A program made the translations under genes and the position numbers. The notes below the pieces were generated by a model that was not told where the DNA came from, made no database searches, and was given only the letters and a program-made list of their open reading frames with translations. Below, piece by piece: positions 37,097-43,139 of a DNA stretch of 46,725 bases (position 1 is the first letter of the stretch; each line of letters begins with the position of its first letter). Location: NCBI GenBank assembly GCA_902573085.1, contig CACGHY010000001.1:1-46725 (forward strand), written 5' to 3'. Origin of the DNA: an uncultured Candidatus Poseidoniales archaeon. GTDB lineage: Archaea; Thermoplasmatota; Poseidoniia; Poseidoniales; Thalassarchaeaceae.

Positions 37097-37250
37097 GTGG
37101 GAAAGTGGAGCGTCAGGGCTATTGATGGTTTTCGATGAGTTTTTTGTTTAACCATTCAGCAGAGTGATTCAAATCATACCAGTAGTTCGCCCATTCGTGA
37201 ATTCGGACTTCTCGGGCTCTGAGCGCAATTGGCGTGAAGAACTATCAAGA

Positions 37251-38399
37251 ATGATAATCCCAATTTCAGTCAAAAATGATGTTTTACTGAACAAAACCCT
37301 TCAGAGTTTAATAAAACATGGAAGAGTTTCTTGTGATTTGGGAGAGGAATTGCATAACAAAGCCCCATTGCCCGGATTGACCGCACTAGCAATGATGATC
37401 AAAAGGTCAAGGTTTGGAGATAGTATATTCTTCAATGAAAACCTCCATGTCAATACAACGAATGTATGCACTCTTGCGTGTAGATTCTGTGCTTTCAGGA
37501 AGGGGCCAAGGCACAGTGACGCATATTCTCTTACTCCTGAAGAGTTCGTATCCAGAATAGAACCGTTCGAAGGAAAAATCGACGAGGTCCATGCAGTGGG
37601 CGGACTACACCCAGATTGGAATATAGATCACTATTCGGACATTTACCGAATCACCAAGAAGAGGTTCCCAGAAATCAGCATCAAGTCACTAACCGCAGTC
37701 GAAGTAAAGCATATTGCATCCAGATCTGGATTAGGTGTTTTGGAGACACTGACTATTCTGAGAGACTCAGGCCTAGACTCCCTGCCGGGTGGAGGAGCAG
37801 AGATTCTAGTAGATACGATCAGGGATCGTATTTGCATGGGTAAAGAGAAATCGGCCGAATACTTGGAGATACACGGCATTGCACACGAATTGGGCATCCC
37901 AACAAATTGCACGATGCTATTCGGAACCATTGAAACAAACCAAGATCGCGTCACTCATCTTAACAAACTGAGAGAACAGCAGGATGCCTCTGGGGGATTC
38001 CAGTGCTTTGTGCCCTATCCGTTCCTCGAGGACAACACAAGATTGCCAGAAGCACGACTTGCCTCTGGGGCAGAGGTGATCAGAATAATTTCTCTTTCAA
38101 GGATAATGCTTGACAATATCCCGCACATCAAGGCTTACAGGATGAATATTGGAGATCACCTTGCGACAATTGCAATCAACTCCGGAGCGGATGACATAGA
38201 CGGCACTGTCGGTCACGAGGAAATAATGCATGTCGCGGGTAGTACAACAAATTTGAATTACGACTCGTACAAACTGGGAAATCTGATCAAGTCTGCAGGT
38301 CAGAATCCTGTGAAGAGGGACTCCACATATACGCGTTTCGAGCCTTTCCAAATTAAACCCAAAAGAGAAGGCCACCTACTCCCGATAATAGGTCAGTGA
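37251..38399 (+). CDS. mqnE: Aminodeoxyfutalosine synthase (radical SAM)
   Basis: Radical SAM enzyme joining SAM and 3-enolpyruvylbenzoate in the futalosine route to menaquinone. The cluster motif is CTLACRFCAF (CxxxCxxC). MqnE-like features separate it from MqnC: GGLHPDWNIDHYSDI, LTAVEVKHIASRSGL, DSLPGGGAEIL, and TNCTMLFGTIETNQDRVTHL. The frame begins at a GTG (37164), but the ATG at 37251 gives 382 residues, close to the family length, and is preferred. mqnA follows four bases after its stop. Confidence 0.88.
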   Translation: MIIPISVKNDVLLNKTLQSLIKHGRVSCDLGEELHNKAPLPGLTALAMMIKRSRFGDSIFFNENLHVNTTNVCTLACRFCAFRKGPRHSDAYSLTPEEFVSRIEPFEGKIDEVHAVGGLHPDWNIDHYSDIYRITKKRFPEISIKSLTAVEVKHIASRSGLGVLETLTILRDSGLDSLPGGGAEILVDTIRDRICMGKEKSAEYLEIHGIAHELGIPTNCTMLFGTIETNQDRVTHLNKLREQQDASGGFQCFVPYPFLEDNTRLPEARLASGAEVIRIISLSRIMLDNIPHIKAYRMNIGDHLATIAINSGADDIDGTVGHEEIMHVAGSTTNLNYDSYKLGNLIKSAGQNPVKRDSTYTRFEPFQIKPKREGHLLPIIGQ

Positions 38400-38403
38400 A
38401 TCC

Positions 38404-39201
38404 ATGTCATGGGACGGAGTACTTGGCAGGGTTTCGTTCATCAACTGTGATCCAGTATTCCATGCGATTCCTGACGGCTGGCAGGTTCTCTCCGCACCTC
38501 CGTCTTGGTTAAGTGGACATCTTTTACGTAGAGACTGCATTACAGCTCCAATACCTACCGCCGATTATGCGTCCAATATGGATAAACTCAGCCTTATCAG
38601 AGATATAGGGATAGTTGGCCGTGAGTCTGTCGGCTCGGTGCTTCTATTCGGAAATAGGCCAATCGAGACTATGAGGGACATTGCATTGCCCTCAGACTCC
38701 TCGACATCCAATATGCTAATGAGATGGATACTCAAGCAGAGGGGACTCGATCCGAAATATGTCAAAATGGGCCCTGATATGGACCTGATGCTTGATGAAT
38801 GTGATGGGGCACTAATAATCGGAGATCGTGCAATAGCTGCTGCAATCAATAATCCCGACTTGGTTAGGATGGATCTGGGCAGAGAATGGGCAGAGGTAAC
38901 CGGACTGCCGATGGTCTTCGGGGTATTCGCAGCAAGGAAAGATTCCAACGGCCTTTCAATAAGCAGGGCAAGAGAATTGATGCTCAACAATTACAACATA
39001 TTCCTCGAACAAGAAAATGTAAGAGATATTGTAATTTCAAACGCTTCGAAAAAAGTCAACCTGTCCGTCGAAAGGGTGGGAGAATATTATGAGAATGAGG
39101 TCTCAAATATACTCAATCCAGAGTCAATCAAAGGCTTGAAATTCTTCCTTGAGGAAGTTTGTAAGGAAAAATCAGACCCGGACTGGTTCGACCACATTTA
39201 G
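38404..39201 (+). CDS. mqnA: Chorismate dehydratase, menaquinone biosynthesis
   Basis: Converts chorismate to 3-[(1-carboxyvinyl)oxy]benzoate, the first step of the futalosine pathway, making the substrate of the adjacent MqnE. It is a periplasmic-binding-protein-fold enzyme of the MqnA/MqnD family: an N-terminal VSFINCDPVFHAI, APPSWLSGHLLRRD, and DGALIIGDRAIAA with the following REWAEVTGLPMVFGVFAAR are characteristic. It is 265 residues long and begins four bases after mqnE, so the two are surely one transcript. Confidence 0.88.
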   Translation: MSWDGVLGRVSFINCDPVFHAIPDGWQVLSAPPSWLSGHLLRRDCITAPIPTADYASNMDKLSLIRDIGIVGRESVGSVLLFGNRPIETMRDIALPSDSSTSNMLMRWILKQRGLDPKYVKMGPDMDLMLDECDGALIIGDRAIAAAINNPDLVRMDLGREWAEVTGLPMVFGVFAARKDSNGLSISRARELMLNNYNIFLEQENVRDIVISNASKKVNLSVERVGEYYENEVSNILNPESIKGLKFFLEEVCKEKSDPDWFDHI

Positions 39202-39683
39202 TCCGTGTACTCAAGTTTCTTGCTGGATACCCAGTTTAGGAGATCTATGGCTACTTCACAGGATTCTGCTACAACCACCTCTTCGTCCGATGAGAACTTT
39301 TCCAGCGTACTCATGGCAACCCTGTTGCCAATAGCACCCAAGGCTTCCGCTGCCTCATGCCTAACCATCACATCTTCCTCCAGATCCTCCAACCTTTCTA
39401 TCAGGTAAGGGACCGCGTTATCGTCCTGCATTTGCCCTAAAACGTACGCAATCTCGTGCTTCAGTAATGCTGATCTGGACTCAAACGCGTCTGCCAGCGA
39501 GTCAACGGCGGGCTTACCTCCGATATTCCTCAAGGCGAATAGAGCCCTCATCCTCTGAAACATCTTCTCCTGCTCGTCGCACAAGGTTTCGCGTAGTTTC
39601 TCAACGGTTTGGTCGTTGCTAGCAGGTGGGGCCGGATCAACTGATCCAAACTCGCTAACCTCGGGCTTATCATTCATGCTCAT
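39198..39683 (-). CDS. Half-size deoxyhypusine hydroxylase-like HEAT-repeat protein
   Basis: A 161-residue HEAT-repeat protein strongly resembling the C-terminal half of eukaryotic deoxyhypusine hydroxylase (DOHH), the di-iron enzyme that finishes hypusine on eIF5A. Seen: the SVDPAPP linker found between the two DOHH halves, RALFALRNIGG, and two His-Glu iron-ligand motifs in SALLKHEIAYVLGQMQ (76-77) and VMVRHEAAEALGAI (109-110). The motif spacing is 33, as in human DOHH. SCEVAID and a final EYTD follow. Full DOHH is about 300 residues with four HE motifs; here two imply a homodimer if active. ATG 39683 is used; ATG 39677 is possible. It overlaps the mqnD 3' end by 14 bases. A generic PBS-lyase HEAT protein is the alternative. 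Confidence 0.82.
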   Translation of the reverse strand: MSMNDKPEVSEFGSVDPAPPASNDQTVEKLRETLCDEQEKMFQRMRALFALRNIGGKPAVDSLADAFESRSALLKHEIAYVLGQMQDDNAVPYLIERLEDLEEDVMVRHEAAEALGAIGNRVAMSTLEKFSSDEEVVVAESCEVAIDLLNWVSSKKLEYTD

Positions 39684-40521
39684 CAGCTCCAATGAACTTC
39701 AGACCACTAGCATCGAAATCACTCCTGACTAGGCCAAGTTCCACTCCCCTCTCCAGAAACATTCTAACTGCATTGCGGCCATCTTTACCATAGTCTATTG
39801 TACGTTTATTTACGTACATCCTTACAAATTCTTCGTTGGTATCCTTATCTATACCCCTTCCCCACTTAATTGCGTCTTTTAGCGCATCCCCGGGATTCTC
39901 AAGCGAGAATTCAATACTTCTTTTGATATCGTCACAAATTTGTTCACACACAGATTCTCCTAGGTCCTTCCTTACTATATTCCCACCTAATGGGAGTGGA
40001 AGCCCAGTCTTCTCGTTCCACCAAATTCCTAAATCTAAAACCATGAAAGCTCCTTCATCAGACCACGTTAACTGGCCCTCGTGAATGATTACCCCAGAGT
40101 CATATTCCCCACTCAATACCCCTGGAAGTATTTCGTCAAAGGGTACCTCCAGCACATCTACTCTCCCCAATGCCAGAAGAAGAGCGAGATATGAACTCGT
40201 GCTCCTTCCCGGCACTGCAATAACTGAACTTTTTGCTTCTTCAACACTCATTTCCTTTTTTGAAATTAAGATTGGCCCATACCCCTCACCCATAGAGGCT
40301 CCACAGTTCATTAGATAGTAAAAATCAGATATTTTTGGGTAGGAGTGAATGCTTACGGCGGAGACTTCGAAAGTGCCCAGCTCGGCCTCTCTATTCAGTG
40401 TGTCAATATCTACCAAGACGTGCTCATACCTTCTGTTACCCGTGTCAATTGCCCCATTTGTCAATGCATGGAACATGAAAGCATCATCGGGATCCGGGGA
40501 ATGCCCTATTCTGATGGTCAC
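39670..40521 (-). CDS. mqnD: 1,4-dihydroxy-6-naphthoate synthase, menaquinone biosynthesis
   Basis: Converts cyclic dehypoxanthinyl futalosine to 1,4-dihydroxy-6-naphthoate. The N-terminus IRIGHSPDPDDAFMFHAL matches the MqnD start (SPxPNDTFxFHAL), with GTFEVSAVSIHSYP, GEGYGPILIS and HEGQLTW conserved. The frame runs to 40662, but most of that extension lacks homology. The GTG at 40521 (283 aa) lies about 32 bases from the TATA-like CTTAATTAC (40549-40557) and starts just before the conserved region; GTG 40536 is another candidate. It is not next to mqnA but faces it, with the DOHH-like gene between. mqnB and mqnC are not in the window. Confidence 0.88.
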   Translation of the reverse strand: MTIRIGHSPDPDDAFMFHALTNGAIDTGNRRYEHVLVDIDTLNREAELGTFEVSAVSIHSYPKISDFYYLMNCGASMGEGYGPILISKKEMSVEEAKSSVIAVPGRSTSSYLALLLALGRVDVLEVPFDEILPGVLSGEYDSGVIIHEGQLTWSDEGAFMVLDLGIWWNEKTGLPLPLGGNIVRKDLGESVCEQICDDIKRSIEFSLENPGDALKDAIKWGRGIDKDTNEEFVRMYVNKRTIDYGKDGRNAVRMFLERGVELGLVRSDFDASGLKFIGADEHE

Positions 40522-40548
40522 TGTGTCTTCGTTCACGTTCCATGGGTT

Positions 40549-40557
40549 GTAATTAAG
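40549..40557 (-). promoter_or_regulatory. TATA-like box for mqnD
   Basis: CTTAATTAC on the minus strand is centred 32 bases upstream of GTG 40521. This is the spacing expected of a leaderless or nearly leaderless archaeal gene. Confidence 0.4.
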
Positions 40558-40588
40558 TTGAAATGCGTTTTGATTCACATTTCTCCGC

Positions 40589-40597
40589 GATATAATG
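40589..40597 (+). promoter_or_regulatory. TATA-like box for the small gene at 40624
   Basis: GATATAATG is centred about 30 bases upstream of ATG 40624, consistent with a leaderless transcript. It supports choosing that ATG over upstream in-frame codons. Confidence 0.4.
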
Positions 40598-40623
40598 AAA
40601 TGGTTTACATCACAGGGGCGGTT

Positions 40624-40818
40624 ATGCCTGATCCATCTAAGCTTACAACTGCCTCTGGACAACTTGGTCCTGTGTGCGCAATTACTGGAAAGGCCCTGAA
40701 GTTCTCTGAAGCGATCGTTCTCGACGATGAGTATGTTTGCTGGGAAGCCTATATCGAAGCAACTGGAGCCTCGCCATCAACAGATGGCAAGGAAGTTGGC
40801 GGACTTAAACTAGGCTAA
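40624..40818 (+). CDS. Small protein of unknown function (64 aa)
   Basis: A short soluble protein starting MPDPSKLTTASGQLGPVC and ending GGLKLG, with two cysteines (CAITGKAL and YVCWEAY) that do not form a standard zinc ribbon. The in-frame extension back to 40345 lies antisense to mqnD and is judged a shadow; ATG 40600 is a second possible start. It is divergent from mqnD and lies 36 bases ahead of the primase gene. No family recognised. Confidence 0.6.
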   Translation: MPDPSKLTTASGQLGPVCAITGKALKFSEAIVLDDEYVCWEAYIEATGASPSTDGKEVGGLKLG

Positions 40819-42128: not shown

Positions 42129-43139
42129 TTGAATAGTGTTGCACTGCGGACATTGACTGTGGCTGACCCTTTAGACGATATAGAAGACGAGTCTAATCCG
42201 ACTTCTGGCGTATTGCCACCGCCTCCTCCGGGAATTTCAATGCCTCCTCCATTGGCTGATCCGGATCTGCCTGAAATACCCCCGCTTCCACTCAGCCCAC
42301 CCGGCCCTAAGTTCGGCTTCTCGCCAGAGCAGTCTTCTGACGGAGACCTATTAGACGCAGCAAGCTCCCTTTCGGTATCCACTGAATCTTCAGATATGCC
42401 AGAGTCTACGGATTTCAAATCAGTCTGGAACAAGAGGAAGTCCAACGATCCCTCCATTTCGAGCGGCTCCAGAGACAAGATATATGAGAGGATTGAAAGA
42501 ATTTCAACAGGAAAGGGAGACTCCCTTATGGAAAGGTACTCTGATAGGTTCGGTTCAGACCTAGATAGAGAAATCATCATTCTCAGGAAGAAAGACCAAG
42601 AAAATCTTGCAACAATAAAACCTACCGTTGAGGTGATATCTCAATCGACAAACAACGAGATGTCTTTGGATGAATTCATTGAGGCGATGGAAGACTCGGA
42701 TTTCATTCGTAGAGTTTCCGAGAAAACTGGTGTTTCAATCGAGAAGATCGAAGAATTAGATATGGATTCGATGAAATCTTTTTTTGAGCAAGCAGATATA
42801 GACAACTCAGGCACTCTGGACTTTGACGAATTCGTGAATGGCATTATCCAGAGTTTCCGCAGTTATGACGAGGATTTCTCTCACTTCTTTACGGTAGTCA
42901 ATGGATTACTGGGAGAATTGCCAGATGAGAAAACTAGCGAATTCATTTCATCAGATGGTTTTGAGATGTTCAAGACCGTAGGGGAAGATCCTGTGTCCAC
43001 AGATTCGGATACTAGAGGTCAGTTCTTCGCGATGGTTAATGAACTGCTTGCCGACTTGCCTGAACCAGTTATGAAGTCATTCACAGAATCTCAAGACTTT
43101 GAGTTGTACAAATTGATTGCAGAAAGGTACGGTGGTTGA
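42129..43139 (+). CDS. EF-hand protein with proline-rich N-terminus, unknown
   Basis: A 336-residue soluble protein. Residues about 25-60 are proline-rich (PPPPPGISMPPP and further PP repeats). At about residues 217-245 there is a canonical EF-hand: loop DIDNSGTLDFDE (223-234), flanked by helices MKSFFEQA and FVNGIIQSF. An upstream segment NNEMSLDEFIEAM may be a degenerate partner. Calcium binding is expected from the loop; the partner is unknown. The start is a TTG (42129); GTG 42159 is an alternative. It is followed immediately by a membrane protein with a charged N-terminus, probably co-transcribed. Confidence 0.72.
   Translation: MNSVALRTLTVADPLDDIEDESNPTSGVLPPPPPGISMPPPLADPDLPEIPPLPLSPPGPKFGFSPEQSSDGDLLDAASSLSVSTESSDMPESTDFKSVWNKRKSNDPSISSGSRDKIYERIERISTGKGDSLMERYSDRFGSDLDREIIILRKKDQENLATIKPTVEVISQSTNNEMSLDEFIEAMEDSDFIRRVSEKTGVSIEKIEELDMDSMKSFFEQADIDNSGTLDFDEFVNGIIQSFRSYDEDFSHFFTVVNGLLGELPDEKTSEFISSDGFEMFKTVGEDPVSTDSDTRGQFFAMVNELLADLPEPVMKSFTESQDFELYKLIAERYGG

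Follow-up and report, generated by a model that had tools for sequence, protein, structure and literature searches.

Hypusine is a rare amino acid that occurs in a factor for protein synthesis; in eukaryotes its formation is completed by deoxyhypusine hydroxylase (DOHH), an enzyme that uses O2. A review (PMC9117371) gives H56, H89, E90, H207, H240 and E241 of human DOHH as the residues that anchor its di-iron centre, and E57, E90, E208 and E241 together with two glycines as those that bind deoxyhypusine. For archaea, PMC3306375 (2012), PMC5178350 (2016), PMC6105217 (2018) and PMC8153317 (2021) report that a DOHH orthologue was not known, even though some archaea contain hypusine. According to PMC5178350 and PMC6105217, aIF5A of Haloferax carries deoxyhypusine only, and hypusine is made in Sulfolobus, in which a DOHH had not been found. 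In the Haloferax model DHS transfers agmatine and agmatinase then completes deoxyhypusine (PMC5178350). The accessible sections of PMC12868627, PMC8835957 and PMC12803844 make no statement about an archaeal DOHH, and a literature search over partly accessible sources, which covers neither preprints nor most subscription journals, showed no report of one in the titles and abstract openings listed.

The window analysed here, i.e., the whole stretch of 46,725 nucleotides of contig CACGHY010000001.1 from an uncultured Candidatus Poseidoniales archaeon, contains a gene whose product resembles one half of DOHH. Compared with the eukaryotic enzymes (human 4d4z, yeast Lia1), the HE motifs, their spacing and the half-fold are the same, and DHS and IF5A are present as well, but the protein is archaeal, is 161 aa long (the human PDB chain has 294), has a single HEAT domain and is encoded by a gene that was lost repeatedly within its order; four HE motifs would take two chains, each with two. 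For one archaeal lineage, a conserved half-length DOHH in marine archaea thus supplies a specific candidate for the step that had been missing.

Homology, conserved residues and copy number

The gene is an open reading frame of 161 codons plus stop (Table 1). The sequence-only reading had its extent right; the gene lies on the minus strand, and the plus strand across the same interval contains many stops.

Table 1. Positions of the half-length gene, its landmarks, its upstream neighbour and its decayed relatives (in the window unless a locus is given)
Feature	Position	Strand	Remark
Half-length DOHH homologue	39198..39683	minus	ORF; matches human DOHH
Start ATG	39683	minus	gives 161 aa
Alternative start ATG	39677	minus	gives 159 aa; GGAG 9 nt upstream; agrees with starts of several relatives
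Further alternative start TTG	39692	minus	
GGAG, possible ribosome-binding site	39687..39690	minus	letters seen, putative role
SVDPAPP segment, residues 14-20	39624..39644	minus	aligned to inter-domain linker of human DOHH
First HE motif, H76-E77	39453..39458	minus	aligned to human H56-E57 and H207-E208
Second HE motif, H109-E110	39354..39359	minus	aligned to human H89-E90 and H240-E241
MqnD-like gene (PF02621)	39670..40662	minus	directly upstream; end overlaps DOHH start by 8-14 nt
DOHH relic	L161:1156-1296		
DOHH relic	L163:2063-2155		
DOHH relic	L165:1096-1336		
DOHH relic	L167:1081-1275		
DOHH relic	L170:1378-1635		

Human DOHH (4d4z) is by far the top phmmer match in the PDB (E=4.8e-75), and its two halves match about equally well (N half 122.7 bits, C half 130.3 bits); the second-ranked matches are designed alphaRep proteins (E 1e-46), for which no single stretch among the matches listed exceeds 49 bits. 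A profile built from 44 relatives gave 306 bits (5e-91) for DOHH, 196 bits over six stretches for the best alphaRep-containing chain, 3e-57 for designed HEAT repeats and 26-27 bits for MTH187 and YibA. The sequence-only reading had called for a comparison with the phycocyanobilin-lyase HEAT proteins, and a grouping with these, which would have spoken against DOHH, was not seen: CpcE reaches 32 bits with this profile. The PBS-lyase HEAT proteins (CpcE, NblB) and alphaRep have HEAT_PBS repeats and a similar superhelix in common with our protein, but match it more weakly than DOHH does. Identity to the human halves is 47% (N) and 48% (C) over 132-144 aligned residues. The alignment with human DOHH ends at residue 150, and yeast DOHH presumably has ELEYA at the place of the EYTD tail.

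The Pfam families HEAT_PBS and HEAT_2 match above their gathering cut-offs (58.4 and 53.3 bits), which is a fold label only, and the NCBIfam models NblB (42.8 bits, cut-off 300) and CpcE (27.5 bits, cut-off 330) both fall far under theirs; the Pfam and NCBIfam scans returned HEAT repeats, lyases and weak chance-like matches and no DOHH model. When 389 genomes of the phylum Thermoplasmatota were searched with the profile, the weakest uninterrupted full-length match had an E-value of 1.9e-43 and the best generic HEAT match 5e-13, with only fragments and relics between and under these two scores; the generic HEAT loci of the phylum thus rank far below the DOHH family. By these comparisons, the homology to DOHH goes beyond that of HEAT repeats in general.

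The AlphaFold2 model of the monomer (mean pLDDT 88.4) has eight helices that form four hairpins. Its best Foldseek match is again 4d4z (E about 1e-9), onto whose N half it aligns with a VIA-align Z of 20.2 and an rmsd of 1.9 Å over 138 residues; the alphaRep proteins follow behind human DOHH with Z values of 18.3 or less. Because helical repeat proteins commonly give high Z values, we regard the sequence as stronger evidence than the structure match. DOHH has two halves on one chain (eight HEAT repeats); the model has four hairpins only, and the chain carries two His-Glu motifs, not four. As only one half is present, we class the protein as a half-length variant and not as a standard DOHH.

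Are the residues on which DOHH depends present in this half? A comparison of 105 distinct proteins (this one included, decayed copies excluded), derived from 139 fetched loci with match E-values of 1e-15 or better, shows no variation at H76, E77, H109, E110, G83, R52, S71, Q84, R108, E113 and G116 in any of them, and D16 and P17 are each kept in all 104 proteins that align at the SVDPAPP segment. The two HE pairs are 33 residues apart, as had been read from the sequence alone, and by alignment H76, H109 and E110 are the counterparts of the human iron-holding residues. For the N-half glycine our alignment gives human G63, where PMC9117371 prints G65. The earlier description of the protein as an archaeal DOHH homologue of half length, with a full half-set of putative metal ligands, is thus supported at the level of sequence.

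The gene has one match in its own genome, in most other carriers and in the one-contig genome G002. Four genomes (G030, G099, G101 and G132) hold two matches each, in what look like duplicate or foreign contigs, and in G085, as in G161, the two matches are a single gene split into adjacent pieces. On the small contig C45 (locus L053) of G132, a genome of family f2, the DOHH protein is identical to that of G155 (L012) in family f1, and this copy is probably assembly contamination. The full-length matches in the order Poseidoniales occupy open frames with 153 to 234 codons, which leaves no room for two DOHH halves (a few matches are fragmentary or have stops), and no gene for a partner half was seen in the own genome, in 193 genomes of the order or in the 389 phylum genomes. 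Since the gene is normally single-copy and a second half was not found, we infer that the active enzyme is probably a homo-oligomer, and the homodimer suggested in the sequence-only reading gains in plausibility.

The protein is probably, in our judgement, a single-domain, homodimeric di-iron deoxyhypusine hydroxylase whose reaction converts the deoxyhypusine of aIF5A to hypusine; its dimerisation, iron binding, substrate and product are predicted. Such an enzyme would work as follows: a chain of about 18 kDa would fold into four HEAT hairpins equivalent to one eukaryotic DOHH half and would carry one His-Glu set (H76, E77, H109, E110); two identical chains would pair with the symmetry of the human DOHH halves, so that one iron per chain would give a single di-iron, peroxo-forming site; DHS, possibly with agmatinase, would set deoxyhypusine on the aIF5A lysine in the loop SKPGKHGSAK; and the homodimer, with O2, would hydroxylate the deoxyhypusine side chain to give hypusine. 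If this reading is true, the protein offers a minimal two-fold symmetric di-iron oxygenase for enzymology.

Origin of the half-length protein

The sequence-only reading had noted that SVDPAPP resembles the inter-domain linker of DOHH and had taken this as a hint that a eukaryotic gene lost its N half after transfer. The two do align in the PDB search, but the deduction drawn from them is not supported: an identical or similar segment opens the DOHH-like proteins of six other Thermoplasmatota families, and the nine carriers outside the order have [VIT]DP at their start in 9/9 cases and DPAP in 7/9. As the segment is a general N-terminus of the archaeal proteins, it is not good evidence of N-half loss, and the module may have started with it from the outset.

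Trees were built from 21 archaeal half-proteins and from DOHH of human, yeast and Arabidopsis, each divided into its N and C half; the yeast and Arabidopsis sequences were entered by hand and are presumed to be correct. In the unrooted tree the eukaryotic N halves form one clade (98/90). Another group (94/91) unites the C halves with the Poseidoniales and f31 proteins, and seven other Thermoplasmatota proteins stand apart from it (96/95). Distant HEAT outgroups, whose branches are very long, place the root among the archaeal half-proteins with weak support. In AU tests, neither all archaea as one clade, nor the eukaryotic N and C halves as one clade, nor the N halves with Poseidoniales and f31 was rejected (p 0.393 in each case), and with human DOHH alone, halves placed together, p was 0.177. 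Five positions discriminate N from C halves in the sequences used; our protein agrees with the C halves at two of them, with the N halves at one and with neither type at the other two.

That the protein has the same function and descends from the C half of a eukaryotic or stem-eukaryotic DOHH, its N half lost after an ancient transfer, is somewhat unlikely in our estimation. The position of the eukaryotic C halves beside Poseidoniales and f31 in the unrooted tree and the segment common to the C-half start are what speak for it, but the three C halves (two of them the sequences entered by hand) form a clade of their own (98/95), and nesting the archaea within them, in four arrangements, costs 11.0-15.6 log-likelihood units with p-AU values of 0.034-0.168. 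One of these four values lies below 0.05, and it is weak because six AU tests were run in that set, four of them for the nesting arrangements. The archaeal half-proteins, in eight families, are moreover as little as 37% identical to ours, while among the eukaryotic C halves compared identity is 52-54%; the outgroup root, however weakly placed, and the nearly equal identity to both human halves also count against descent from the C half, and gene order (below) indicates that the gene is old in the order. We lean, tentatively, towards the archaeal half-protein being ancestral rather than derived. A fuller version of the ancestral origin is a serious possibility that we hold tentatively: the half-protein would be a surviving ancestral homodimeric DOHH, eukaryotic DOHH would have arisen by duplication and fusion, and its SVDPAPP linker would be the fossil N-terminus of the second copy. 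The archaeal proteins offer a route to study how the eukaryotic enzyme was assembled from two halves.

Neighbouring genes, pathway partners and substrate

The gene just upstream belongs to PF02621, and Pfam searches of the neighbours gave menaquinone biosynthesis (PF02621) and CofH/MqnC; we take the genes to be MqnA-, MqnC- and MqnD-like and name them so here. A second, MqnA-like PF02621 gene converges on the DOHH gene from the other side. Altogether, the menaquinone genes that surround the DOHH gene at 37164-40662 are these two PF02621 genes and one for a radical SAM protein of CofH/MqnC type.

This setting raises the possibility that the protein is a homodimeric di-iron hydroxylase of DOHH fold that acts on another substrate, for example in a menaquinone-linked step. 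In 77 of the 80 named loci (best 80 of 238 relatives), the gene directly upstream on the same strand is MqnD-like, with a median distance of 10 nt between matched ends, and the remaining three gave no mqnD match within the sequence examined. The mqnD gene is found in 163 of the 193 genomes of the order, i.e., in 139 of 143 DOHH carriers and in 24 of 50 non-carriers. DHS and aIF5A (below) are near-universal, so their presence singles out no substrate. Against this stand several observations. Adjacency by itself would make two genes go missing jointly in draft assemblies, and in the 34 genomes of highest completeness mqnD is present in 23/23 carriers and also in 8/11 non-carriers; joint absence of the two genes may reflect lost contigs or joint deletion. 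Four carriers (G093, G137, G146 and G173) have no mqnD match, and the neighbours are others in G146 (L042) and in other Thermoplasmatota families. Five of 20 non-carriers, picked because they have mqnD, hold decayed DOHH relics directly behind it (G009, G022, G034, G044 and G059; that of G034 is weak, E 0.003), and the other 15 have no DOHH trace at E 0.05; mqnD thus outlives the loss of DOHH. Finally, the Glu and Gly positions of DOHH that bind deoxyhypusine are conserved. We consider another substrate distinctly unlikely, and mqnD is probably merely a transcription partner of what we take to be a deoxyhypusine hydroxylase gene.

Families f1 and f2 have different gene orders, yet MqnD followed by DOHH is kept in both, which argues for an old presence of the gene in the order; genomes outside the order have other neighbours of DOHH. 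The DOHH gene was lost repeatedly within the order, and hydroxylation is thus probably useful but dispensable. Natural losers, among them genus g5, are available for comparison.

The sequence-only reading had proposed to look for dhs and aIF5A genes in the genome. DHS is present in the own genome and in 192 of 193 genomes of the order; its family, PF01916, has two matches rather than one in most of them. A search for aIF5A gave no match in the own genome, whose completeness is 62.6%, but it is present in genomes of the same genus (e.g., G005), and the NCBIfam model TIGR00037 matches 48 of 60 genomes of the order. The Pfam model PF01287 (eIF-5a) matched 0/193 genomes of the order, a value that we set aside in favour of TIGR00037 because the model matched in only two control genomes, which did not include M. 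jannaschii or H. volcanii. The lysine loop of aIF5A reads KPGKHG in 10/10 loci, with SKSKPGKHGSAK around the lysine in all 10.

The arginase/agmatinase family was found in 37 of 40 genomes of the order, the own genome included, spermidine synthase (PF01564) in 0/40 and pyruvoyl arginine decarboxylase in 1/40. These counts give only partial support to a route that leads to deoxyhypusine through agmatine, as modelled for Haloferax. The likeness to the Haloferax pathway lies in DHS acting on aIF5A and in the agmatinase-family gene, and the difference in the presence here of a DOHH homologue too. In the one-contig genome G002 the gene, dhs, aIF5A and the agmatinase-family gene are all far apart.

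Distribution, oxygen and the remaining alternatives

At an E-value of 1e-8 the gene is present in 143 of the 193 genomes of the order, including 23 of the 34 most complete; its absence from the other 50, including 11 of the 34, marks it as dispensable. Of the 389 phylum genomes in the profile search, 127 belong to the order and 262 do not; the order contributes 98 of the 122 matches, and the remaining 24 come from outside it. Nine of the 262 outside genomes are strong carriers (match 2e-43 or better; families f4, f15, f21, f31, f32 and f39), and their proteins are likewise half-length, with longer frames in L146, L148 and L152 that gave one match each. The other 15 outside matches are weak (5e-13 or worse), and the four of them that were listed (L154, L156, L157 and L158) read as generic HEAT proteins. 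In the class of G193 the gene occurs in 5/7 genomes, and none of seven genomes from another order of the Poseidoniales' own class is among the phylum profile matches. The best 80 of 238 relatives in the contig scan all carry archaeal titles (Marine Group II, Poseidoniales, Thalassarchaeaceae, Euryarchaeota or Thermoplasmatota). Two scans of viral contigs and a search of phages gave no relative, and a plasmid scan gave one weak match (40.7% identity over 47% of the query).

Does the distribution follow that of oxygen use? COX1 is found in 191 of the 389 phylum genomes and in 74 of the 262 outside the order, and it is present in all nine DOHH carriers outside the order (hypergeometric P 8e-6, relatedness ignored), which are not nine independent cases since they fall in six families. 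A haem-copper oxidase in 9/9 outside carriers is what one would expect if the enzyme uses O2. Within the order, COX1 and DOHH show no link: the 10 genomes with no COX1 match, which are drafts of 79-92% completeness, are all DOHH carriers, and many non-carriers have COX1.

Two alternatives fare worse than those above. A non-catalytic HEAT-repeat adaptor that merely resembles DOHH is highly improbable: HEAT repeats are common binding scaffolds and the Pfam and NCBIfam matches include no DOHH model, but both HE motifs and further DOHH site residues do not vary among the 105 proteins, and DOHH scores well above the other HEAT proteins. A truncated pseudogene, an assembly error or eukaryotic contamination, to which the eukaryotic best match and the decayed or interrupted copies in relatives might point, is ruled out by the same half-length frame in most of the 143 matching genomes, the gene order conserved in two families and the invariance of the site residues in 105/105 proteins.

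Elsewhere in the window, positions 42129-43139 encode a proline-rich protein with weak EF-hand matches, whose gene adjoins a primase-like gene in many relatives.
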